Part shown: positions 13,565 to 63,575 of the stretch, piece by piece
How positions within the stretch are numbered: position 1 is the stretch's first letter
Layout: every line of letters begins with the position of its first letter
Assembly (NCBI GenBank): GCA_958510825.1
Contig: OY294044.1
Location: forward strand, 80,336,895 to 80,400,894
From: Brachypterus glaber
Taxonomy: Eukaryota; Arthropoda; Insecta; Coleoptera; Kateretidae
Length of the DNA stretch: 64,000 nucleotides
Direction: 5' to 3'
Made by a program: the position numbers and the translations under genes
Notes under the pieces: model-generated
Database searches by the model: none
What the model saw: only the letters and a program-made list of their open reading frames with translations
What the model was told of the DNA's origin: nothing

Positions 13565-13573
13565 GCTGCTAGG

Positions 13574-14916
13574 ACATATTTTTAAAATTGCTTTTTAATT
13601 TCAGCACAAGGCAGGCTGTAAGCATGGCTTTTAGCACTGTGAGAAGTTCACTACAAATAAGATTTACACCTGGTAACATTGGCACAGGTTCAATTACTAG
13701 GGACGACTTTATAAATGAACATGTGACACCATTTGCTAACCAATTGTATAATGTAGACCCAGCTATGCCAAAAGCAATAGTTATATGTGATGCCACATAT
13801 GCATACATCCAAAAAAGTAACAATTTTAGGGTCTTAAGACAATCCTACTCCAACAATTAGGGTAGACACCTTTTAAAGCCGACACTAATAGTTGGAACAG
13901 ATGGCTACATTTTGACTATACTGGGTCCCTATTTCTCCGACAATTACAATAACGATGCTGCTATTTTGCAAAACGAGTTTGAAAGAGATGCTCAAAATTT
14001 TATAGACTGGTTTGAAAACGGTGATGTTTTTTTAGTGGACAGAGGATATAGGGATGTTAAACCAATTCTTGAGAGAATGGGTATCCATTGCGAAATTCCA
14101 GCATTTCTCCAACAGAGTGAAACGCAACTTTCTACGGAGGATGCCAATCTTTCCAGACTGGTTACAAAAAGTCGATGGATGGTAGAGTCTAGAAATGGAC
14201 ATATAAAAACTATTTTTAAGCTCTTTGACCATTGCTTTTCTGTTCACAATGCAAGGTTTATCGGCGAATATTTTAGAATTGCTGGAGCAATAATCAATAA
14301 ATATTATCCACCCATCATTATGCAGGACGCAACTGTGGACCTTGCCAGGGAAATGCTTCAGAAAAGCCAGGAACCAAATGTAGTACAAGCTCGCATTGAA
14401 GAAGACAATCTGCGAAATAGGCGTGGCCAATGGCAAAGACTTCATAATCAAATACCTGATTTTCCTAGGTTGGATATTGATTACCTGAAACTCTTAACTG
14501 TTGGAATTTACCAGGCCAACTTAGCAGCATCCTACATTCAGGATAAGTTGCAAAGAGATGGGGATGATGAACTCCAGATTGACACACTTATTAATGAAAA
14601 CAATCTTATAAGAATTAGACTTAATTCCAGATTCAGAAATTCTACTAAGCACCAAGTCTTTATATCCTACATTAATGAACAGAATAGGTTAGAAGCAGAG
14701 AACCCCGTTTCAGGTTATTATTGTACTGGTCAGTCCGGTGCAAGGACTCTGGGAACATGCGCACATGTTGCAAGCATTCTTTGGTATCTTGGATATGCAC
14801 GTCATGAACCTAATATTCGATATCCAGATAATGGGTTGTTGGAAACCACAATTGATGCAGCTCATAGGGCAAGACAAGAAAATGTAGAAGCCATAGAACC
14901 AGAAGTTTTAGACTAA
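13574..14916 (+). pseudogene. DDE transposase catalytic domain with SWIM-like C terminus
   Basis: It encodes the nuclease half of the transposase split by the foldback. One frame runs from 13588 to 14916, interrupted only by a TAG at 13858-13860; the sequence on both sides (RVLRQSYSNN, then GRHLLKPTLIVGTDGY) is clearly continuous. The three catalytic acids of a DDE_4-type nuclease can be placed: Asp in VICDATYAYI (codon 13789), Asp in FLVDRGYRD (codon 14038) and Glu in MVESRNGHIK (codon 14185). Near the end, GYYCTGQSGARTLGTCAHVA (Cys 14722, Cys 14758, His 14764) resembles a SWIM zinc finger whose usual second Cys is Gly here. The stretch 13574-13604 ends TTTTTAATTTCAG, like a 3' splice site, and a short segment expected between KMRMG and STRQAV seems missing. 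The gene is dead in this copy, but most catalytic features survive. Confidence 0.85.
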
Positions 14917-32396: not shown

Positions 32397-32732
32397 TAAT
32401 AATAATCTGTATTTTAATTAAAGCAAGTCATGTCAAGATTTTCTGGATAACCCTGCATATAAAAATTATAATTTATAATCCTCAATTTTAAAAAGTTTAT
32501 ATTTAGGTTGTTATTTAAGATTCAAATTTTGTTGGTAAGAAACTACGTCTAATAAAAGTTTATATTCTTTTAAAGTATATAATACTTAAACTAGTAAGAA
32601 AAGTTTAACCTACATAAAGTTTGTACTTGTCTAAAATCTTGTACCTTAACTTAAATCAATTGTTTCAAACCAAAAAAGCAATTTTCTTTTTTAAATTAAA
32701 TCAACAGTTTAAAAATAATTAAATTATTATTC

Positions 32733-33019
32733 CATCAATCTATTTTCTAATCATCGTACAGAGTGATATTGGTAGACTGACAATTTCGGGCTGCGGGCCC
32801 TCTTCAGTACCAAGTATGCACGCTGATTAACAAAACGTTTTTAGACTTTATTCGCAAAAGGAATATAGTCATTAGATTGATGTAGACTTGTGCCCCCATC
32901 TATTGCTAGATGTAGACAACTACTTATACCTCTCCTAGTCTGGAGACTGAATGGTAACAAGTTGAAGACTTGTGTGTCTCAAGCAAATAGTACCACTAGT
33001 GGTTAGATGTAGAATTAGT
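32733..33019 (-). repeat. Dispersed retrozyme-like monomer (minus strand)
   Basis: It matches one 354-bp unit of the 51.8-61.9 kb array in reverse complement: ATCAGCGTGCA, GGTACTGAAGAGGGC, CTCTGTACGATGATTAG, and the AACCAC...CTTGAGACACACAAGTC and GATGTAGACAACTACT segments. Divergence is about 5-10%, with some deletions. A partial forward unit (GACTAGGAGAGGTATGAGTA on) follows directly at 33020-33090, giving an inverted junction. Confidence 0.85.
32755..32822 (-). ncRNA. Hammerhead ribozyme copy, minus strand
   Basis: On the minus strand: TTGGTA, CTGAAGA, stem II GGGC with loop CCGCA and GCCC, GAA, stem III ATT-GTC-AGT (one U-G wobble), C, TACCAA. The core is intact. The outer part of stem I is shortened, because the 5' strand reads CGTGCATAC in place of the array's CGTGCAGAGTTGACTC. 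Cleavage would fall after the C preceding TACCAA. Activity is likely weaker than in the array copies because stem I lost part of its internal loop. Confidence 0.75.
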
Positions 33020-33095
33020 AATAGACTAGGAGAGGTATGAGTAGTTGTCTACATCTAGCAATAGATGGCGAACAAGTCTACATCAATCTAATGGC
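33020..33095 (+). repeat. Partial forward retrozyme unit
   Basis: GGAGAGGTATGAGTAGTTGT through CAAGTCTACATCAATCTAAT matches the middle of the array unit. It abuts the minus-strand monomer, so the locus has an inverted, tail-to-tail structure. Confidence 0.75.
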
Positions 33096-33318
33096 TTTAT
33101 ATCGATATGTATAAAACACATTGGAAATTTTTAATATTGCATGCTAAAAAATGCGCTTATACACTGATAAAAAGGATTTATTTGGGTATGGCCAATTAAA
33201 TTATTTGGTTGTGAGTAACAAATTTTATTTGAATCAAATATTTAGTTCATGTAAACAAATATTTTAATTTCAAAATGATTTATTAATGGGAACAAAATAG
33301 TTTATTTGACAGAAATAA

Positions 33319-33480
33319 CATTTATTTTATTATTCCATTAATCTATTTTCTAATCATCGGACAGAGTGATATTGGTAGACTGGCAGTTTCGGGCTGCTGG
33401 CCCTTTTCAGTACCAAAAATAAAATTAAAATAAAATAAATATTTTTATAATTTTGTTTAAAATTAAAAATTTATGTCATT
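33319..33480. repeat. Small retrozyme-derived fragment, inverted then forward
   Basis: 33319-33413 is the minus-strand piece around the ribozyme (TTTTCTAATCATCGGACAGA ... TTTTCAGTACC). 33436-33478 is forward unit sequence (ATTTTTATAATTTTGTTTAA then AATTAAAAATTTATGTC). This repeats, in miniature, the inverted-then-forward start of the main array. Confidence 0.75.
33356..33416 (-). ncRNA. Hammerhead-like copy with damaged core
   Basis: The minus strand reads TTGGTACTGAAAAGGGCC then AGCAGCCCGAAACTGCCAG, TC, TACCAA. The core G at position 8 (CUGAAGA to CUGAAAA) is changed; that residue takes part in catalysis in known hammerheads, so this copy is probably inactive. The outer strand of stem I is also missing. 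Confidence 0.6.
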
Positions 33481-33702
33481 AAAATTTGTTTTTCACAGCC
33501 AAATAATTCAATTGGCCATATCCAACCAAATATTTTGTTGACACAAATAAACTGTTTTATCAGTTTACGCCAGTTATAAAAAATAAGTTAACTTAATACA
33601 ACAAATAGTTTTGGGAATAAGCCTTTGGTAAACAATCGCATATATTTACGTAGTCATGTTTTAACGGGAAACTCCCATTTAACGAAAATAACACCGGCCC
33701 AC

Positions 33703-51783: not shown

Positions 51784-51796
51784 AAACCTATAGGTT
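51784..51796. repeat. Left 13-bp direct repeat flanking the array
   Basis: AAACCTATAGGTT, identical to 61945-61957. The array starts at the next base on the left and ends at the preceding base on the right. This is the expected look of a target-site duplication. Confidence 0.85.
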
Positions 51797-51917
51797 AATT
51801 TATTATTCCATCAATCTATTTTCTAATCATCGTACAGAGTGATATTGGTAGACTGACAGTTTCACTCTGTACGATGATTAGAAAATAGATTGATGATATT
51901 GGTAGACTGACAGTTTC
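51797..51917. repeat. Inverted fragments at the start of the array
   Basis: 51797-51863 is unit sequence in reverse orientation, from the ribozyme stem III side outwards (its reverse complement ends GGAATAATAAATT). 51864-51895 is forward (ACTCTGTACGATGATTAG...). 51896-51917 is reverse again (ATATTGGTAGACTGACAG...). From 51918 the array runs forward without further inversion. The joints share a few bases (TTTC, GATG). Confidence 0.85.
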
Positions 51918-52177
51918 ACTCTGTACGATGATTAGAAAATAGATTGATGGAATAATAAATTAATATTTTTATAATTTTGTTTAAAATTAAAAATTTCTGT
52001 CCTTACTAATTTTACGTCTAACCACCCGTTAGTGGTACTATGTGCTTAAGACACACAAGCCTTCAACTTGCTACCATTCAAAGTCTCCAGATAAGGAGAG
52101 GTATGAGTAGTTGTCTACATCAATCTAATGGCTATATTCCTTTTGCGAGTAAAGTCTAAAAACGTTTTCTTAATCAG

Positions 52178-52252
52178 CGTGCAGAGTTGACTCTTGGTAC
52201 TGAAGAGGGCCAGCAGCCCGAAACTGTCAGTTTACCAATATCACTCTGTACG
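52178..52252 (+). ncRNA. Type I hammerhead ribozyme, first array copy
   Basis: Stem I outer strand CGTGCAGAG (pairs with CTCTGTACG), internal loop, stem I inner TTGGTA (pairs with TACCAA), core CTGAAGA, stem II GGGC-CAGCA-GCCC, GAA, stem III ACT-GTC-AGT, then the cleavage base. In this first copy the cleavage base is T (GTCAGTTTACC) where the other copies read GTCAGTCTACC, so cutting after U rather than C would be expected to be slower. Confidence 0.85.
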
Positions 52253-52531
52253 ATGATTAGAAAATAGATTGATGGAATAATAAATTAATATTTTTATAAT
52301 TTTGTTTAAAATTAAAAATTTCTGTCCTTACTAATTTTACGTCTAACCACCCGTTAGTGGTACTATGTGCTTGAGACACACAAGTCTTCAACTTGCTACC
52401 ATTCAAAGTCTCCAGATAAGGAGAGGTATGAGTAGTTGTCTACATCTAGAAATAGATGGCGCACAAGTCTACATCAATCTAATGGCTATATTCCTTTTGC
52501 GAGTAAAGTCTAAAAACGTTTTCTTAATCAG

Positions 52532-52606
52532 CGTGCAGAGTTGACTCTTGGTACTGAAGAGGGCCAGCAGCCCGAAACTGTCAGTCTACCAATATCACTC
52601 TGTACG
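52532..52606 (+). ncRNA. Type I hammerhead ribozyme, consensus array copy
   Basis: In RNA terms it folds as follows. Outer stem I is CGUGCAGAG with CUCUGUACG (nine pairs, one G-U). The internal loop is UUGACUC against UAUCA. Inner stem I is UUGGUA with UACCAA. Then come CUGAAGA, stem II GGGC with loop CAGCA and GCCC, GAA, stem III ACU with loop GUC and AGU, and C. Every element of the known hammerhead core (CUGANGA, GAAA, UH before the cut) is present, and the cut would fall between 52586 and 52587. Stem I with an internal loop opposite a stem II loop is the natural arrangement for the tertiary contact that speeds cleavage. Cleavage at each copy would release 354-nt monomers. Confidence 0.9.
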
Positions 52607-53239
52607 ATGATAAGAAAATAGATTGATGGAATAATAAATTAATATTTTTATAATTTTGTTTAAAATTAAAAATTTCTGTCCTTACTAATTTTACGTCTAA
52701 CCACCCGTTAGTGGTACTATGTGCTTGAGACACACAAGTCTTCAACTTGCTACCATTCAAAGTCTCCAGATAAGGAGAGGTATGAGTAGTTGTCTACATC
52801 TAGAAATAGATGGCGCACAAGTCTACATCAATCTAATGGCTATATTCCTTTTGCGAGTAAAGTCTAAAAACGTTTTCTTAATCAGCGTGCAGAGTTGACT
52901 CTTGGTACTGAAGAGGGCCAGCAGCCCGAAACTGTCAGTCTACCAATATTACTCTGTACGATGATTAGAAAATAGATTGATGGAATAATAAATTAATATT
53001 TTTATAATTTTGTTTAAAATTAAAAATTTCTGTCCTTACTAATTTTACGTCTAACCACCCGTTAGTGGTACTATGTGCTTGAGACACACAAGTCTTCAAC
53101 TTGCTACCATTCAAAGTCTCCAGATAAGGAGAGGTATGAGTAGTTGTCTACATCTAGAAATAGATGGCGCACAAGTCTACATCAATCTAATGGCTATATT
53201 CCTTTTGCGAGTAAAGTCTAAAAACGTTTTCTTAATCAG

Positions 53240-53314
53240 CGTGCAGAGTTGACTCTTGGTACTAAAGAGGGCCAGCAGCCCGAAACTGTCAGTCTACCAA
53301 TATCACTCTGTACG
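53240..53314 (+). ncRNA. Hammerhead copy with a core change (CTAAAGA)
   Basis: The core reads CTAAAGA, so the invariant G5 is A. Stems I, II and III are intact. Expected to be inactive, which would leave a dimer-length (708-nt) product. Confidence 0.75.
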
Positions 53315-53947
53315 ATGATTAGAAAATAGATTGATGGAATAATAAATTAATATTTTTATAATTTTGTTTAAAATTAAAAATTTCTGTCCTTACTAATTTT
53401 ACGTCTAACCACCCGTTAGTGGTACTATGTGCTTGAGACACACAAGTCTTCAACTTGCTACCATTCAAAGTCTCCAGATAAGGAGAGGTATGAGTAGTTG
53501 TCTACATCTAGAAATAGATGGCGCACAAGTCTACATCAATCTAATGGCTATATTCCTTTTGCGAGTAAAGTCTAAAAACGTTTTCTTAATCAGCGTGCAG
53601 AGTTGACTCTTGGTACTGAAGAGGGCCAGCAGCCCGAAACTGTCAGTCTACCAATATCACTCTGTACGATGATTAGAAAATAGATTGATGGAATAATAAA
53701 TTAATATTTTTATAATTTTGTTTAAAATTAAAAATTTCTGTCCTTACTAATTTTACGTCTAACCACCCGTTAGTGGTACTATGTGCTTGAGACACACAAG
53801 TCTTCAACTTGCTACCATTCAAAGTCTCCAGATAAGGAGAGGTATGAGTAGTTGTCTACATCTAGAAATAGATGGCGCACAAGTCTACATCAATCTAATG
53901 GCTATATTCCTTTTGCGAGTAAAGTCTAAAAACGTTTTCTTAATCAG

Positions 53948-54022
53948 CGTGCAGAGTTGACTCTTGGTACTAAAGAGGGCCAGCAGCCCGAAACTGTCAG
54001 TCTACCAATATCACTCTGTACG
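53948..54022 (+). ncRNA. Hammerhead copy with the same core change (CTAAAGA)
   Basis: Identical G5-to-A change as at 53262, two units downstream. The two were probably spread by unequal exchange or by copying of a dimer. Confidence 0.75.
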
Positions 54023-57000
54023 ATGATTAGAAAATAGATTGATGGAATAATAAATTAATATTTTTATAATTTTGTTTAAAATTAAAAATTTCTGTCCTTA
54101 CTAATTTTACGTCTAACCACCCGTTAGTGGTACTATGTGCTTGAGACACACAAGTCTTCAACTTGCTACCATTCAAAGTCTCCAGATAAGAAGAGGTATG
54201 AGTAGTTGTCTACATCTAGAAATAGATGGCGCACAAGTCTACATCAATCTAATGGCTATATTCCTTTTGCGAGTAAAGTCTAAAAATGTTTTCTTAATCA
54301 GCGTGCAGAGTTGACTCTTGGTACTGAAGAGGGCCAGCAGCCCGAAACTGTCAGTCTACCAATATCACTCTGTACGATGATTAGAAAATAGATTGATGGA
54401 ATAATAAATTAATATTTTTATAATTTTGTTTAAAATTAAAAATTTCTGTCCTTACTAATTTTACGTCTAACCACCCGTTAGTGGTACTATGTGCTTGAGA
54501 CACACAAGTCTTCAACTTGCTACCATTCAAAGTCTCCAGATAAGGAGAGGTATGAGTAGTTGTCTACATCTAGAAATAGATGGCGCACAAGTCTACATCA
54601 ATCTAATGGCTATATTCCTTTTGCGAGTAAAGTCTAAAAACATTTTCTTAATCAGCGTGCAGAGTTGACTCTTGGTACTGAAGAGGGCCAGCAGCCCGAA
54701 ACTGTCAGTCTACCAATATCACTCTGTACGATGATTAGAAAATAGATTGATGGAATAATAAATTAATATTTTTATAATTTTGTTTAAAATTAAAAATTTC
54801 TGTCCTTACTAATTTTACGTCTAACCACCCGTTAGTGGTACTATGTGCTTGAGACACACAAGTCTTCAACTTGCTACCATTCAAAGTCTCCAGATAAGGA
54901 GAGGTATGAGTAGTTGTCTACATCTAGAAATAGATGGCGCACAAGTCTACATCAATCTAATGGCTATATTCCTTTCGCGAGTAAAGTCTAAAAACGTTTT
55001 CTTAATCAGCGTGCAGAGTTGACTTTTGGTACTGAAGAGGGCCAGCAGCCCGAAACTGTCAGTCTACCAATATCACTCTGTACGATGATTAGAAAATAGA
55101 TTGATGGAATAATAAATTAATATTTTTATAATTTTGTTTAAAATTAAAAATTTCTGTCCTTACTAATTTTACGTCTAACCACCCGTTAGTGGTACTATGT
55201 GCTTGAGACACACAAGTCTTCAACTTGCTACCATTCAAAGTCTCCAGATAAGGAGAGGTATGAGTAGTTGTCTACATCTAGAAATATATGGCGCACAAGT
55301 CTACATCAATCTAATGGCTATATTCCTTTTGCGAGTAAAGTCTAAAAACGTTTTCTTAATCAGCGTGCAGAGTTGACTCTTGGTACTGAAGAGGGCCAGC
55401 AGCCCGAAACTGTCAGTCTACCAATATCACTCTGTACGATGATTAGAAAATAGATTGATGGAATAATAAATTAATATTTTTATAATTTTGTTTAAAATTA
55501 AAAATTTCTGTCCTTACTAATTTTACGTCTAACCACCCGTTAGTGGTACTATGTGCTTGAGACACACAAGTCTTCAACTTGCTACCATTCAAAGTCTCCA
55601 GATAAGGAGAGGTATGAGTAGTTGTCTACATCTAGAAATAGATGGCGCACAAGTCTACATCAATCTAATGGCTATATTCCTTTTGCGAGTAAAGTCTAAA
55701 TCGTTTTCTTAATCAGCGTGCAGAGTTGACTCTTGGTACTGAAGAGGGCCAGCAGCCCGAAACTGTCAGTCTACCAATATCACTCTGTACGATGATTAGA
55801 AAATAGATTGATGGAATAATAAATTAATATTTTTATAATTTTGTTTAAAATTAAAAATTTCTGTCCTTACTAATTTTACGTCTAACCACCCGTTAGTGGT
55901 ACTATGTGCTTGAGACACACAAGTCTTCAACTTGCTACCATTCAAAGTCTCCAGATAAGGAGAGGTATGAGTAGTTGTCTACATCTAGAAATAGATGGCG
56001 CACAAGTCTACATCAATCTAATGGCTATATTCCTTTTGCGAGTAAAGTCTAAAAACGTTTTCTTAATCAGCGTGCAGAGTTGACTCTTGGTACTGAAGAG
56101 GGCCAGCAGCCCGAAACTGTCAGTCTACCAATATCACTCTGTACGATGATTAGAAAATAGATTGATGGAATAATAAATTAATATTTTTATAATTTTGTTT
56201 AAAATTAAAAATTTCTGTCCTTACTAATTTTACGTCTAACCACCCGTTAGTGGTACTATGTGCTTGAGACACACAAGTCTTCAACTTGCTACCATTCAAA
56301 GTCTCCAGATAAGAAGAGGTATGAGTAGTTGTCTACATCTAGAAATAGATGGCGCACAAGTCTACATCAATCTAATGGCTATATTCCTTTTGCGAGTAAA
56401 GTCTAAAAATGTTTTCTTAATCAGCGTGCAGAGTTGACTCTTGGTACTGAAGAGGGCCAGCAGCCCGAAACTGTCAGTCTACCAATATCACTCTGTACGA
56501 TGATTAGAAAATAGATTGATGGAATAATAAATTAATATTTTTATAATTTTGTTTAAAATTAAAAATTTCTGTCCTTACTAATTTTACGTCTAACCACCCG
56601 TTAGTGGTACTATGTGCTTGAGACACACAAGTCTTCAACTTGCTACCATTCAAAGTCTCCAGATAAGGAGAGGTATGAGTAGTTGTCTACATCTAGAAAT
56701 AGATGGCGCACAAGTCTACATCAATCTAATGGCTATATTCCTTTTGCGAGTAAAGTCTAAAAACATTTTCTTAATCAGCGTGCAGAGTTGACTCTTGGTA
56801 CTGAAGAGGGCCAGCAGCCCGAAACTGTCAGTCTACCAATATCACTCTGTACGATGATTAGAAAATAGATTGATGGAATAATAAATTAATATTTTTATAA
56901 TTTTGTTTAAAATTAAAAATTTCTGTCCTTACTAATTTTACGTCTAACCACCCGTTAGTGGTACTATGTGCTTGAGACACACAAGTCTTCAACTTGCTAC

Positions 57001-57251
57001 CATTCAAAGTCTCCAGATAAGGAGAGGTATGAGTAGTTGTCTACATCTAGAAATAGATGGCGCACAAGTCTACATCAATCTAATGGCTATATTCCTTTTG
57101 CGAGTAAAGTCTAAAAACGTTTTCTTAATCAGCGTGCAGAGTTGACTCTTGGTACTGAAGAGGGCCAGCAGCCCGAAACTGTCAGTCTACCAATATCACT
57201 CTGTACGATGATTAGAAAATAGATTGATGGAATAATAAATTAATATTTTTA

Positions 57252-57310
57252 ATATCACTCTGTACGATGATTAGAAAATAGATTGATGGAATAATAAATT
57301 AATATTTTTA
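57252..57310 (+). repeat. 59-bp internal duplication in the array
   Basis: AATATCACTCTGTACGATGA through TAAATTAATATTTTT is repeated directly, lengthening this unit from 354 to 413. The repeat joint is ATTTTTAATATC. Confidence 0.9.
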
Positions 57311-59316
57311 TAATTTTGTTTAAAATTAAAAATTTCTGTCCTTACTAATTTTACGTCTAACCACCCGTTAGTGGTACTATGTGCTTGAGACACACAAGTC
57401 TTCAACTTGCTACCATTCAAAGTCTCCAGATAAGAAGAGGTATGAGTAGTTGTCTACATCTAGAAATAGATGGCGCACAAGTCTACATCAATCTAATGGC
57501 TATATTCCTTTTGCGAGTAAAGTCTAAAAACATTTTCTTAATCAGCGTGCAGAGTTGACTCTTGGTACTGAAGAGGGCCAGCAGCCCGAAACTGTCAGTC
57601 TACCAATATCACTCTGTACGATGATTAGAAAATAGATTGATGGAATAATAAATTAATATTTTTATAATTTTGTTTAAAATTAAAAATTTCTGTCCTTACT
57701 AATTTTACGTCTAACCACCCGTTAGTGGTACTATGTGCTTGAGACACACAAGTCTTCAACTTGCTACCATTCAAAGTCTCCAGATAAGGAGAGGTATGAG
57801 TAGTTGTCTACATCTAGAAATAGATGGCGCACAAGTCTACATCAATCTAATGGCTATATTCCTTTTGCGAGTAAAGTCTAAAAACGTTTTCTTAATCAGC
57901 GTGCAGAGTTGACTTTTGGTACTGAAGAGGGCCAGCAGCCCGAAACTGTCAGTCTACCAATATCACTCTGTACGATGATTAGAAAATAGATTGATGGAAT
58001 AATAAATTAATATTTTTATAATTTTGTTTAAAATTAAAAATTTCTGTCCTTACTAATTTTACGTCTAACCACCCGTTAGTGGTACTATGTGCTTGAGACA
58101 CACAAGTCTTCAACTTGCTACCATTCAAAGTCTCCAGATAAGGAGAGGTATGAGTAGTTGTCTACATCTAGAAATATATGGCGCACAAGTCTACATCAAT
58201 CTAATGGCTATATTCCTTTTGCGAGTAAAGTCTAAAAACGTTTTCTTAATCAGCGTGCAGAGTTGACTCTTGGTACTGAAGAGGGCCAGCAGCCCGAAAC
58301 TGTCAGTCTACCAATATCACTCTGTACGATGATTAGAAAATAGATTGATGGAATAATAAATTAATATTTTTATAATTTTGTTTAAAATTAAAAATTTCTG
58401 TCCTTACTAATTTTACGTCTAACCACCCGTTAGTGGTACTATGTGCTTGAGACACACAAGTCTTCAACTTGCTACCATTCAAAGTCTCCAGATAAGGAGA
58501 GGTATGAGTAGTTGTCTACATCTAGAAATAGATGGCGCACAAGTCTACATCAATCTAATGGCTATATTCCTTTTGCGAGTAAAGTCTAAAAACGTTTTCT
58601 TAATCAGCGTGCAGAGTTGACTCTTGGTACTGAAGAGGGCCAGCAGCCCGAAACTGTCAGTCTACCAATATCACTCTGTACGATGATTAGAAAATAGATT
58701 GATGGAATAATAAATTAATATTTTTATAATTTTGTTTAAAATTAAAAATTTCTGTCCTTACTAATTTTACGTCTAACCACCCGTTAGTGGTACTATGTGC
58801 TTGAGACACACAAGTCTTCAACTTGCTACCATTCAAAGTCTCCAGATAAGGAGAGGTATGAGTAGTTGTCTACATCTAGAAATAGATGGCGCACAAGTCT
58901 ACATCAATCTAATGGCTATATTCCTTTTGCGAGTAAAGTCTAAAAACGTTTTCTTAATCAGCGTGCAGAGTTGACTCTTGGTACTGAAGAGGGCCAGCAG
59001 CCCGAAACTGTCAGTCTACCAATATCACTCTGTACGATGATTAGAAAATAGATTGATGGAATAATAAATTAATATTTTTATAATTTTGTTTAAAATTAAA
59101 AATTTCTGTCCTTACTAATTTTACGTCTAACCACCCGTTAGTGGTACTATGTGCTTGAGACACACAAGTCTTCAACTTGCTACCATTCAAAGTCTCCAGA
59201 TAAGAAGAGGTATGAGTAGTTGTCTACATCTAGAAATAGATGGCGCACAAGTCTACATCAATCTAATGGCTATATTCCTTTTGCGAGTAAAGTCTAAAAA
59301 TGTTTTCTTAATCAGC

Positions 59317-61864
59317 GTGCAGAGTTGACTCTTGGTACTGAAGAGGGCCAGCAGCCCGAAACTGTCAGTCTACCAATATCACTCTGTACGATGATTAGAA
59401 AATAGATTGATGGAATAATAAATTAATATTTTTATAATTTTGTTTAAAATTAAAAATTTCTGTCCTTACTAATTTTACGTCTAACCACCCGTTAGTGGTA
59501 CTATGTGCTTGAGACACACAAGTCTTCAACTTGCTACCATTCAAAGTCTCCAGATAAGGAGAGGTATGAGTAGTTGTCTACATCTAGAAATAGATGGCGC
59601 ACAAGTCTACATCAATCTAATGGCTATATTCCTTTTGCGAGTAAAGTCTAAAAACATTTTCTTAATCAGCGTGCAGAGTTGACTCTTGGTACTGAAGAGG
59701 GCCAGCAGCCCGAAACTGTCAGTCTACCAATATCACTCTGTACGATGATTTAAAATAGATTGATGGAATAATAAATTAATATTTTTATAATTTTGTTTAA
59801 AATTAAAAATTTCTGTCCTTACTAATTTTACGTCTAACCACCCGTTAGTGGTACTATGTGCTTGAGACACACAAGTCTTCAACTTGCTACCATTCAAAGT
59901 CTCCAGATAAGGAGAGGTATGAGTAGTTGTCTACATCTAGAAATAGATGGCGCACAAGTCTACATCAATCTAATGGCTATATTCCTTTTGCGAGTAAAGT
60001 CTAAAAACGTTTTCTTAATCAGCGTGCAGAGTTGACTTTTGGTACTGAAGAGGGCCAGCAGCCCGAAACTGTCAGTCTACCAATATCACTCTGTACGATG
60101 ATTAGAAAATAGATTGATGGAATAATAAATTAATATTTTTATAATTTTGTTTAAAATTAAAAATTTCTGTCCTTACTAATTTTACGTCTAACCACCCGTT
60201 AGTGGTACTATGTGCTTGAGACACACAAGTCTTCAACTTGCTACCATTCAAAGTCTCCAGATAAGGAGAGGTATGAGTAGTTGTCTACATCTAGAAATAT
60301 ATGGCGCACAAGTCTACATCAATCTAATGGCTATATTCCTTTTCGAGTAAAGTCTAAAAACGTTTTCTTAAACAGCGTGCAGAGTTGACTCTTGGTACTG
60401 AAGAGGGCCAACAGCCCGAAACTGTCAGTCTACCAATATCACTCTGTACGATGATTAGAAAATAGATTGATGGAATAATAAATTAATATTTTTATAATTT
60501 TGTTTAAAATTAAAAATTTCTGTCCTTACTAATTTTACGTCTAACCACCCGTTAGTGGTACTATGTGCTTGAGACACACAAGTCTTCAACTTGCTACCAT
60601 TCAAAGTCTCCAGATAAGAAGAGGTATGAGTAGTTGTCTACATCTAGAAATAGATGGCGCACAAGTCTACATCAATCTAATGGCTATATTCCTTTTGCGA
60701 GTAAAGTCTAAAAATGTTTTCTTAATCAGCGTGCAGAGTTGACTCTTGGTACTGAAGAGGGCCAGCAGCCCGAAACTGTCAGTCTACCAATATCACTCTG
60801 TACGATGATTAGAAAATAGATTGATGGAATAATAAATTAATATTTTTATAATTTTGTTTAAAATTAAAAATTTCTGTCCTTACTAATTTTACGTCTAACC
60901 ACCCGTTAGTGGTACTATGTGCTTGAGACACACAAGTCTTCAACTTGCTACCATTCAAAGTCTCCAGATAAGGAGAGGTATGAGTAGTTGTCTACATCTA
61001 GAAATAGATGGCGCACAAGTCTACATCAATCTAATGGCTATATTCCTTTTGCGAGTAAAGTCTAAAAACATTTTCTTAATCAGCGTGCAGAGTTGACTCT
61101 TGGTACTGAAGAGGGCCAGCAGCCCGAAACTGTCAGTCTACCAATATCACTCTGTACGATGATTTAAAATAGATTGATGGAATAATAAATTAATATTTTT
61201 ATAATTTTGTTTAAAATTAAAAATTTCTGTCCTTACTAATTTTACGTCTAACCACCCGTTAGTGGTACTATGTGCTTGAGACACACAAGTCTTCAACTTG
61301 CTACCATTCAAAGTCTCCAGATAAGGAGAGGTATGAGTAGTTGTCTACATCTAGAAATAGATGGCGCACAAGTCTACATCAATCTAATGGCTATATTCCT
61401 TTTGCGAGTAAAGTCTAAAAAGGTTTTCTTAATCAGCGTGCAGAGTTGACTTTTGGTACTGAAGAGGGCCAGCAGCCCGAAACTGTCAGTCTACCAATAT
61501 CACTCTGTACGATGATTAGAAAATAGATTGATGGAATAATAAATTAATATTTTTATAATTTTGTTTAAAATTAAAAATTTCTGTCCTTACTAATTTTACG
61601 TCTAACCACCCGTTAGTGGTACTATGTGCTTGAGACACACAAGTCTTCAACTTGCTACCATTCAAAGTCTCCAGATAAGGAGAGGTATGAGTAGTTGTCT
61701 ACATCTAGAAATATATGGCGCACAAGTCTACATCAATCTAATGGCTATATTCCTTTTCGAGTAAAGTCTAAAAACGTTTTCTTAAACAGCGTGCAGAGTT
61801 GACTCTTGGTACTGAAGAGGGCCAACAGCCCGAAACTGTCAGTCTACCAATATCACTCTGTACG
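59317..61864 (+). repeat. Four-monomer higher-order repeat (1414 bp) at the right of the array
   Basis: Monomers ending at 59338, 59692, 60045 and 60398 carry marker variants that recur in the same order at 60752, 61106, 61459 and 61812: AAGAAGAGG with AAAATGTTT, then ACATTTTC with GATTTAAAATAG, then GACTTTTGG, then AATATATGG with TTTTCGAGT, AAACAGCGT and CCAACAGCC. The period is 1414 bp. The same order with fewer markers is seen from 54324 and 57568. Confidence 0.85.
61790..61864 (+). ncRNA. Last hammerhead ribozyme of the array
   Basis: Complete fold as in the consensus. The stem II loop is CAACA instead of CAGCA (also in the copy at 60398). The core and all stems are unchanged. Confidence 0.85.
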
Positions 61865-61944
61865 ATGATTAGAAAATAGATTGATGGAATAATAAATTAA
61901 TATTTTTATAATTTTGTTTAAAATTAAAAATTTCTGTCCTTACT

Positions 61945-61957
61945 AAACCTATAGGTT
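61945..61957. repeat. Right 13-bp direct repeat flanking the array
   Basis: AAACCTATAGGTT, identical to 51784-51796; the 12-bp core AACCTATAGGTT is itself a palindrome. Confidence 0.85.
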
Positions 61958-62740
61958 ATTATATTATAATAAGTTAGTTTTGGACCAATAATACCTATTT
62001 ATTATAGGCGTACCCCGGGGACTAGCGAGCTGTTTTTGACCATGGGCGTAGCATTAATTCAACACTGATTAGAAGCCACTGCGGTGTACCGCAAGATGGC
62101 TGTCCCCCCTCTAGAACAAAGCAACGCTAGTGTATTTATGATAATACTAAAACATGACAAAAGATGACTAATAGCTCGCAATTGCCCGGGCTCTGATTAT
62201 AGGACTTGTGAAAATGTCCTCTTTCATTTTTCTCATCGCAGGCCGACTGAGCCCCTTCGACGTCAAATTGACAGTTTATTTTGCCTATAATTTATATAGA
62301 TATAACGTATCTTTATGAACCTTTTTTAAATCATTTTGCGTAAATGGTTGTTTTGGCGAAATATTTTTTAAAATGTGACACTTCATATGTCAAACATGTT
62401 GCACCTACGTGCAGTGGGACATTACGACTACTGTAAGTAATGCCGCCAATTGAACTTGGTTTCGAAACCGATTTATTTTGGTTTATAACGATTCGTTATT
62501 AGCGACAGATTATAATGAAGCTAAAATTATTAGTTCAGGCCTCAACCGTGAACATTAAAAGTTTTTCTTCTTTTGCTAGGAATGGTGGCCCAGTGTACTG
62601 TGACCTATGGTCATTTGAACTTTAGTTCTGGTCCGTGACCGTATGGGATTTGTTCCTGCTGTTACAGTAGTAACTACTGTAGCTACTCGTAGTCATTCGG
62701 ACTTTTAGTTCGGTATGTAACCTCTGCTTGAGCTTTAACC
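61958..62740. other. No gene recognised
   Basis: It is less AT-rich than the rest of the window and has no open frame with motifs. Confidence 0.4.
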
Positions 62741-62744
62741 CTGA

Positions 62745-63575
62745 CCGGTGGCCATGGTCGTTTGAACTTTTAGTTCTGGTCTATGACCTGCCAAAACTTG
62801 TTTAGGACAATGGCCGATGGCCCATGACTCATGGTCCTTTGAACTTTTAGTTCAGGTCCGTGACCCCTCTAAACCATGTTTAGGACTTTGGCCCATGGCC
62901 CATGACTCGTGGTCGTTTGAACTTTTAGTTCAGGTCTGTGACCTGCCAAAACTTGTTTAGGACAATGGCCGATGGCCCATGACTCATGGTCCTTTGAACT
63001 TTTAGTTCAGGTCCGTGACCCCTCTAAACCATGTTTAGGACTTTGGCCCATGGCCCATGACTCGTGGTCGTTTGAACTTTTAGTTCAGGTCTGTGACCTC
63101 TCTAAACCTTGTTTAGGACTTTGGCCCGTGGCCGATGACTCGTGGTCGTTTGAACTTTTAGTTCAGGTCTGTGACCTCTCTAAACCATGTTTAGGACTTT
63201 GGCCCATGGCCCATGACTCGTGGTCGTTTGAACTTTTAGTTCAGGTCTGTGACCTCTCTAAACCATGTTTAGGACTTTGGCCAGTGGCCCATGACTCGTG
63301 GTCATTTGAACTTTTAGTTCAGGTCTGTGACCTCCCTAAACCATGTTTAGGACTTTGGCCAGTGGCCCATGACTCGTGGTCGTTCGAACTTTTGTTCAGG
63401 TCTGTGACCTCTCTAAACCATGTTTAGGACTTTGGCCAGTGGCCCATGACTCGTGGTCGTTCGAACTTTGTTCAGGTCTGTGACCTCTCTAAACCATGTT
63501 TAGGACTTTGGCCAGTGGCCCATTACTCGTGGTCGTTTGAACTTTTAGTTCAGGTCTGTGACCTCTCCGAAACTT
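62745..63575 (+). repeat. 78-bp minisatellite, about 11 copies
   Basis: The unit core is CATGACTCGTGGTCGTTTGA, ACTTTTAGTTCAGGTCTGTG, ACCTCTCTAAACCATGTTTA and GGACTTTGGCC. Copies begin at 62823, 62901, 62979, 63056, 63134, 63212, 63290, 63368, 63445 and 63522, with a degenerate leader from 62745. Because 78 is divisible by three, one frame stays open at 62972-63427 and would encode a 26-residue repeat (with WSFELLVQVCDLSKPCLGLW). The right copies lose one or two bases (TTTTGTTC, TTTGTTC), which breaks the frame. No splice or promoter signals mark it as a gene. Confidence 0.9.

Follow-up and report, generated by a model that had tools for sequence, protein, structure and literature searches.

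A 354-bp hammerhead tandem array in the beetle Brachypterus glaber: a probable metazoan retrozyme with Penelope-like insertion ends

Known hammerhead repeats and the beetle array

The metazoan retrozymes were defined in PMC7229834, the available text of which names Penelope-like elements (PLEs) as a strong candidate for their mobilization because both have type I hammerheads, both occur in tandem and both co-exist in the animals analysed there. Further cases appear in the available parts of PMC4918200, PMC7761336 and PMC8490949. A purified PLE cuts and extends both DNA strands and starts inside the RNA (PMC11167929). Its commonest start lies at +111 to +118 and the hammerhead cut at +26, which by subtraction places the start 85-92 nt downstream of the cut; the genomic 'tail' is equated with the stretch between two starts. 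The available part of PMC3846280 reports Penelope copies with a head-to-head inverted repeat, a palindromic junction and duplications of 8-10 bp. The present analysis concerns a 64,000-nt stretch of the kateretid beetle Brachypterus glaber (assembly GCA_958510825.1, contig OY294044.1, positions 80,336,895 to 80,400,894 of the forward strand), called the window below, and the tandem array of 354-bp hammerhead units that it carries.

This array is best explained as a metazoan retrozyme with a predicted self-cleaving type I hammerhead, probably put in place by PLE enzymes (reverse transcriptase and endonuclease), an explanation to which a probability of about 0.83 can be given. Searches of the open-access literature brought up no account of animal retrozymes with head-to-head ends or with paired starts. 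The end rule set out below bears on the question of which enzyme moves animal retrozymes.

Insertion ends of the array, of its relatives and of the genome's Penelope-like element

The initial annotation overlooked that the array was inserted. A target-site duplication borders it, its left end is inverted, and it has thousands of dispersed relatives in the genome, many of which follow a Penelope-type rule in the sample examined. Its features are given below with unit positions counted from the hammerhead cut. Two classes of ends are distinguished, A (44-64) and B (92-115), which together take up 45 of the 354 positions.

51784 to 51797, no strand: left target-site duplication of 14 bp, AAACCTATAGGTTA (exact repeat)
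51795 to 51863, minus strand: left-end antisense arm, which starts at site A and runs from unit position 56 down to 342 (exact antisense of the consensus)
51862 to 51917, no strand: pieces folded back where the two orientations meet, first sense 9-42 and then antisense 11-342 (exact tiling)
51916 to 61946, plus strand: sense arm, the tandem array up to unit position 102, site B (Tandem Repeats Finder, tiling)
52113 to 61946, plus strand: tandem array of the 354-bp unit (Tandem Repeats Finder, period 354)
61945 to 61958, no strand: right target-site duplication (exact repeat)

The array is thus of type AB. The sequence AAACCTATAGGTTA occurs exactly twice in the 64 kb, once at each edge of the array, for a Markov expectation of 0.0019 on both strands. 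Its core is palindromic; the direct repeat extends to 14 letters and the inverted one to 12 only. The first two letters of the right duplication, AA, are also the last two of the array, and the first three letters of the left arm, TTA, are common to the duplication. An empty site of the array was sought within the window and none was found. Two older, dispersed copies of the unit are also present in the window.

32688 to 33100, minus strand: antisense piece followed by a near-full sense monomer (unit 96 across the cut to 86), 89% identity, hammerhead at 32769-32813 (BLAST, model R1)
33322 to 33481, minus strand: antisense 98 to 50 followed by sense 309 to 56, hammerhead at 33372-33416 carrying G8A (BLAST, tiling, model R1)

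By eye, the second of these copies seems to lie between the arms of an unrelated, AT-rich inverted repeat (window 33101-33600).

In the genome (648 Mb, 842 contigs), the 18-mer core CTGAAGAGGGCCAGCAGC of the unit has 3,929 exact copies (2,019 forward and 1,910 reverse), and its backward control has 0. Among the first 100 of these places, neighbours less than 1 kb apart are arranged as minus-plus in 15 cases, plus-minus in 0, plus-plus in 15 and minus-minus in 6, and the spacing of same-strand neighbours is exactly 354 in 18 of 21. These 100 places, less the last three clusters, gave 60 loci that were tiled with the unit, pieces up to 40 bp apart being merged into one insertion. The resulting 69 insertions comprise 40 head-to-head ones (antisense left, sense right), 16 with sense pieces only, 11 with antisense pieces only and two complex ones.

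The outer ends of the 40 head-to-head insertions follow a simple rule. They fall in A or B in 66 of 80 cases, and when both ends can be classed (27 insertions), these always belong to different classes: 17 are BA, 10 are AB and none is AA or BB, a result that never arose when the right-hand classes were permuted 200,000 times. Direct repeats of at least 9 bp flank 20 of the 40 (10-16 bp; 6/800 in flank-swapped controls) and only one of the other 29 insertions, at locus L091. When such a duplication fixes the junction, 18 of 20 insertions have A within 46-56 and B within 94-100. The other two are L102, for which the detected repeat is probably not the genuine duplication, and L079, whose left end is at 40.

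The arms that start from A or B mostly run past the hammerhead cut (54 of 66, with 11 ending before it and one within 3 nt of it). This indicates that the copied RNA was continuous at this place, being either circular or an uncleaved multimer. Arm lengths range from 32 to 1,485 nt, with at least 354 nt in 15 arms and at least two units in five. Within an insertion, successive laps share 12% and the two arms 16% of variant positions, versus 2.8% between insertions; at least 14 of the 55 arm-shared variants come from L123, and divergence varies by locus. This sharing fits a common source RNA without proving that it was one circle. At the 40 head-to-head junctions, the two arms overlap by 1-23 bases in 27 cases, abut in three and are separated by 1-24 extra bases in 10.

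The same ends were looked for in the PLEs of this genome. A search for GIY-YIG gave at least 31 matches, 150 of 419 candidates having been scored. Locus L138 contains a 716-aa frame with RVT_1 (7.7e-10) and GIY-YIG (1.3e-5), as well as two copies of a 1,020-bp stretch, 3 kb from each other and 99.4% identical; a solved-structure search with the PLE frame gave no match. Among 19 PLE loci (L126-L144), L128, L132, L138, L139, L140, L143 and L144 match the L138 element at the DNA level, L138 and L132 (overlapping stretches) being left outside the scoring of ends. Four copies are head-to-head with both ends in view, with A left and B right in L128 and L139 and B left and A right in L143 and L144, so that the end rule holds in 4/4. 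L140 is also head-to-head; its left end is at A, and its right end falls beyond the stretch. In the four copies seen with both ends, a hammerhead-like motif has its cut 55-60 nt upstream of one end and 86-91 nt upstream of the other, and the duplications are 12, 16, 17 and 18 bp long. This motif includes stem II GUUUAU/AUAAAC and GAAACUAGUC followed by GGC, and it is conserved, small changes apart, across 13 aligned PLE rows.

L138, position 8443, minus strand: instance of the PLE hammerhead-like motif (alignment of PLE ends)

A palindromic ACUAGU takes the place of stem III in the PLE motif. The word AAATTAATA is common to the unit (+50) and the PLE (+48). At L129:325-361, a 37-nt stretch near a GIY-YIG match resembles the unit around the cut (86%); it is probably a piece of a retrozyme that has diverged, and no argument was based on it.

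The unit has no reverse transcriptase or GIY-YIG coding, its concatemer containing no stop-free run longer than 65 codons, and so it is not itself a PLE. It may nevertheless work like a PLE insertion. As the head-to-head insertions follow the same end rule as the genome's PLE, this element is the best candidate for the enzyme that copied the repeat, a proposal that rests on the anatomy of the insertions, the rule of which is nonetheless strict and unusual.

The hammerhead motif and the units of the array

The hammerheads of the array and the main irregularities of its units are as follows.

52178 to 61864, plus strand: 28 type I hammerheads, with C17 at 52232 in the first, 52586 in the second and 61844 in the last (motif positions, descriptor, model R1)
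52532 to 52606, plus strand: example of an intact hammerhead, predicted cut after C52586
52178 to 52252, plus strand: copy 1, cleavage-site C17 changed to T, i.e. C17U (core residue comparison)
53240 to 53314, plus strand: copy 4, G5A (core residue comparison)
53948 to 54022, plus strand: copy 6, G5A (core residue comparison)
57192 to 57310, plus strand: 59-bp tandem duplication inside one unit (Tandem Repeats Finder, spacing)
54003 to 55418, plus strand: four-unit variant pattern, units 6-9 (variant comparison between units)

In the intact example, stem I is made of CGUGCAGAGU/ACUCUGUACG and UUGGUA/UACCAA and is followed by CUGAAGA, stem II (GGGC-CAGCA-GCCC), GAA and stem III (ACU-GUC-AGU). 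Stem I contains an internal loop, and loop II is 5 nt long; a tertiary contact between loops 1 and 2 is among the traits of metazoan non-LTR retrozymes. The initial annotation had proposed that every unit encodes a type I hammerhead, with 28 copies on the plus strand 354 bp apart. The number, the strand and the type of the motif are confirmed. All core residues are kept in 25 of the 28 copies, copies 1, 4 and 6 departing as listed, and G5 is essential for the hammerhead. As for the spacing, it is 354 in 21 of the 27 intervals between C17 sites, 353 in five and 413 in one, the latter because of the duplicated 59-bp stretch. The variant pattern of units 6-9 is repeated in units 20-23 and 24-27 and, in an interrupted form, in units 12-17. 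Part of the length of the array was therefore added by later segmental duplication.

The annotated likeness to metazoan retrozymes is supported as well: judged from its sequence, the repeat agrees with the retrozyme criteria that could be tested. Its length of 354 bp and its low GC content (0.354; 31% in the window) are inside the 150-450 bp tandem range of metazoan non-LTR (long terminal repeat) retrozymes, and its target-site duplications (14 bp in the window, 10-16 bp in the relatives) exceed the criterion of more than 4 bp. No stop-to-stop frame of at least 75 aa exists between 51793 and 62942. Such retrozymes lack an LTR, a primer-binding site and a polypurine tract; the search on this point covered tRNA genes, of which the window has none. 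The paired fraction of the predicted 354-nt circle, 63.8%, is below the figure of more than 70% quoted for other retrozyme RNAs, which the available text of PMC4918200 gives as a description and not as a threshold.

Two methods recognize the motif. A strict type I descriptor (CUGANGA, stem II, GAA-A, stem III, UH and at least five stem I pairs adjoining the cut) has 26 matches in the array and another at 32807 on the minus strand, compared with 0 in 300 dinucleotide shuffles of the window. The second is a covariance model, R1, built from 29 of 61 descriptor-found hammerheads of viral contigs, none of them from the window. It matches 30 sites in the window, namely the 28 array copies and the two dispersed ones, with E values between 5.5e-9 and 1.1e-5; no further match appears up to a limit of E=10. 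Its scores are 26.5-36.6 bits for array copies, with at least 33.2 bits in 25 of the 28 and 28.9 for copy 1, and 26.5 and 26.3 for the dispersed minus-strand copies. In the 60 genome loci, R1 has 110 more matches at E values up to 0.01. Neither the descriptor nor R1 finds a hammerhead on the minus strand of the array. The A at position 7 of CUGAAGA is also seen in several viral hammerheads.

The controls for R1 were 23 loci with the same core letters in which the type I descriptor is unmet, some of which may be other hammerhead types. At the motif, 21 of them score 12.3-26.3 bits and two have no listed score; a score of 31.6 in L022 sits away from the shared-core motif. In prokaryote genomes, the motif pattern occurs at 13 loci, with R1 scores of 12.3-26.3 bits at 11 and none for L045 and L054. 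Several type I hammerheads can be found in single viral contigs: eight in L041 (5576-10953), mostly with near-identical stem I and differing stem III, four in L001 (460-2379) and four in L033 (2302-3868).

A covariance-model search had been suggested as a check of the hammerheads. R1 matches all 28 copies, as said above, and Rfam gives no gathering-level match and, up to E=10, no hammerhead family over the array. On one array copy searched by itself, RAGATH-1-hammerhead appears with 21.3 bits and an E value of 0.08, below its cut-off of 56.3. Likewise, there is no gathering-level match at 17 same-core loci, 10 of them descriptor-positive. Up to E=10, RAGATH-1-hammerhead is found at three of the four hammerheads of L001 (25.4-33.4 bits, below the cut-off), and nothing at the fourth or at those of L008 and L034. 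The classical hammerhead family appears in no Rfam run, viral controls included, and the null result at the array is therefore uninformative and not a refutation. Classical hammerhead models seem to be absent or silent in the Rfam copy used.

Among the window copies, no covariation is seen, these being too alike. In 45 distinct rows from the 60 genome loci, three stem I pairs each show one compensatory change, a level reached by 4/500 shuffles; slid versions of the structure give one or two co-varying pairs versus three, in an alignment fitted to the model. Differences from the consensus amount to 1.8% in the hammerhead outside the selected 18-mer and 2.9% in the rest of the unit, for loci chosen adjoining the hammerhead.

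Besides the array, the window contains a 78-bp tandem repeat of 10.5 copies at 62755-63567, about 0.8 kb downstream, and a DDE_Tnp_4 transposase frame at 13573-14916 (domain in 13861-14916). The best named relatives of the latter are from ants and other insects, the closest of them at about 60% identity, and a further relative reaches 65%; the frame points to an insect or another arthropod.

Points against, rival explanations and known systems

A number of observations weigh against the retrozyme explanation or against its PLE part. The sampled loci were chosen by an exact 18-mer on one contig, so that old copies are under-represented, and the ranges of A and B were fixed after viewing the tiling. 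At least one end lies outside A and B in 13 of the 40 head-to-head insertions, 20 of the 40 lack a duplication of at least 9 bp, and the second L077 insertion, among the 27 classed, looks like a local copy of the first. A single orientation is found in 27 of the 69 insertions, of which only L091 has such a duplication. Both complex insertions (plus-minus-plus and plus-minus) belong to L123 and give the sole plus-minus orders; at L123:747-2496, a sense-antisense-sense insertion is largely repeated about 1.1 kb further on. The tract between A and B is AU-rich. For the three window loci alone, the clustering of ends has p of about 0.01, which is lost if ends strongly favour AT-rich DNA, a test superseded by the 60-locus sample.

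Concerning the motif, the viral contigs behind R1 were gathered with a pattern taken from the core and stem II of the window, and stem II GGGC is common to 16 of the 29 R1 sequences, so that R1 is not wholly independent. Controls reach 26.3 bits, level with the weakest window copies: copies 4 and 6 and both dispersed copies (26.3-26.5 bits) are at the top of the control range. Eight of the 122 genome copies differ from the consensus at C17.

The predicted folding of a single copy is not the hammerhead either. The initial annotation had it fold with no forced pairs, which does not hold: in the minimum free energy structure (-33.8 kcal/mol), ACUGA of stem I and the core pairs with UCAGU of stem III, the CUGA/UCAG pairing, whereas the fold with hammerhead stems enforced has -27.5 and the bare hammerhead -23.9 kcal/mol. 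For the 45-nt core, the hammerhead is 6.4 kcal/mol above the optimum, compared with 0.0 in 26 of the 29 viral hammerheads and 0.7 at most. As stem I forms in the competing fold too, its covariation cannot separate the two. However, nearest-neighbour energies leave out the non-standard core pairs, and the predicted misfolding therefore does not exclude activity.

The stem III nonamer ACUGUCAGU is palindromic except for its central U, and two neighbouring copies can therefore share a longer stem III. A two-copy transcript has its optimum at -135.3 kcal/mol, while its double hammerhead comes to -131.1 and a pair of single hammerheads to -117.6 kcal/mol. In the circular unit, the hammerhead costs 6.3 kcal/mol. 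This modelling suggests that a lone copy tends to misfold and that the double hammerhead of neighbouring copies is closer to the optimum. The repeat is predicted to self-cleave, the initial annotation expecting 354-nt monomers as the product, and to cut best as a double hammerhead of neighbouring units. A chance origin of such a palindrome is fairly likely, and the double hammerhead is a prediction.

Other difficulties come from the comparison with PLEs. The motif of the genome's PLE reads UUGARGA and not the CUGANGA consensus. The A-B regions of the unit and of the PLE have no significant sequence similarity, their local score being reached by 971/2000 shuffles, and a 9-mer shared in register arises in 104/5000 shuffles. 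Furthermore, PMC11167929 sees no difference of start site between strands, reports insertion without hammerhead cleavage and finds that the hammerhead of the Anolis PLE cleaves only with protein present; neither a circle nor a rule of one site per strand therefore follows from that work. Strand-equal starts and cleavage-free insertion would fit an uncleaved template and the mixture of AB and BA insertions, and leave 'one of each' unexplained. The third result suggests that the PLE protein may help such ribozymes to fold.

Among the rival explanations, the least weak is that the retrozyme was moved by an ordinary long interspersed nuclear element (LINE), the head-to-head form being due to twin priming. 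In LINE twin priming, only one outer end is the usual start of reverse transcription. LINE-like remnants do exist in the window (RVT_1, zf-RVT, RNase H), and the available text of PMC4918200 reports 15-bp LINE-like duplications in Nematostella repeats. Against this, both outer ends are at fixed starts, one of each, in 27 of the 40 head-to-head insertions and in the four PLE copies, which makes a LINE an improbable agent.

An ordinary satellite spread by unequal crossing-over, with the hammerhead as a relic and the ends of the array as accidents, has a slightly lower probability still. The recurring four-unit pattern does indicate that unequal exchange or gene conversion acted on the array. As a sole explanation, however, the satellite is contradicted by a 14-bp duplication found solely at the two edges and by thousands of dispersed copies, which in the sample carry duplications and obey a fixed rule for their ends. 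It is kept as a later stage in the growth of this array.

The self-complementarity of the 354-nt RNA (the paired circle mentioned above and a z-score of -6.1 for the linear monomer) could also recall a viroid-like or satellite RNA replicon that replicates RNA-to-RNA and was captured into the genome. This origin is very unlikely: no hammerhead lies on the array's minus strand, no match was found in 50,697 phage or 72,556 plasmid records, and an exact 27-mer is absent from IMG/VR. Two 17-mer matches in IMG/VR were set aside, no hammerhead being present around them. Lastly, a non-autonomous DNA transposon, whose terminal inverted repeats the head-to-head arms resemble, is the least probable of all, as the termini are unlike in 27/27 classed insertions, the inner junction differs by locus and the length of the arms is as variable as described above.

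The retrozyme inserted by PLE enzymes is thus preferred, and the following course of events is proposed. The repeat would be transcribed by the host, and its RNA, circular or in the form of an uncleaved multimer, would be copied while still unbroken at the hammerhead site. Each of the two nicked DNA strands would be extended by a reverse transcriptase of its own, one starting at A and the other at B, and the two cDNA arms would join head-to-head, often via microhomology. Repeated laps could give tandem copies, and the array of the window could later have been enlarged by unequal exchange.

A wider and more tentative proposal, which falls somewhat short of even odds, is that retrozymes are to PLEs what short interspersed nuclear elements are to LINEs. 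A hammerhead circle would be copied simultaneously by two Penelope reverse transcriptases, from about 50 and about 97 nt past the cut, one per nicked strand, its laps giving satellite arrays. The ribozyme would be on in the multimer, as a double hammerhead, and off in the monomer circle through the CUGA/UCAG trap. If this is true, the trap would explain how monomer circles escape re-cutting.

Within one genome, the end rule connects a retrozyme with reverse transcription of the PLE type and supplies exact start sites that can be tested in the published in vitro PLE assay. It could also offer a route from mobile RNA to satellite arrays.

Hammerhead satellites are known from insects, for instance pDo500 of Dolichopoda, whose unit is reportedly of about 500 bp, judging by its name. 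The likeness of the present array to this satellite (PMC2837043) is by description only. Satellite hammerheads of newt and axolotl are another case in which a weak, palindromic stem III favours the double hammerhead, according to the available text of PMC7229834. In the amphibians, a single pair with a palindromic tetraloop stands where the beetle has ACUGUCAGU, again compared by description only.

The closest resemblance on the ribozyme side is to the metazoan non-LTR retrozymes, which share a type I hammerhead in a tandem repeat, as far as the available text of PMC7229834 describes them. They differ from the beetle array in that stem III is here 3 bp long with a triloop and that the monomer is predicted to misfold. 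Tandem arrays are described in that article, the available text of which mentions neither head-to-head ends nor fixed starts; the word 'inverted' occurs 0 times in its main text. It is in these features that the array is like the PLEs, such as PAc of Anolis (PMC11167929) and the Penelope elements of Adineta (PMC3846280, available part): two starts separated by a 'tail', a head-to-head inverted repeat, target-site duplications and a hammerhead just upstream of the starts. The spacing of the starts is about 47 nt in the unit versus a tail of about 30 nt in the genome's PLE. Unlike PLEs, the unit is only 354 bp long and non-coding, and it would need PLE proteins in trans.

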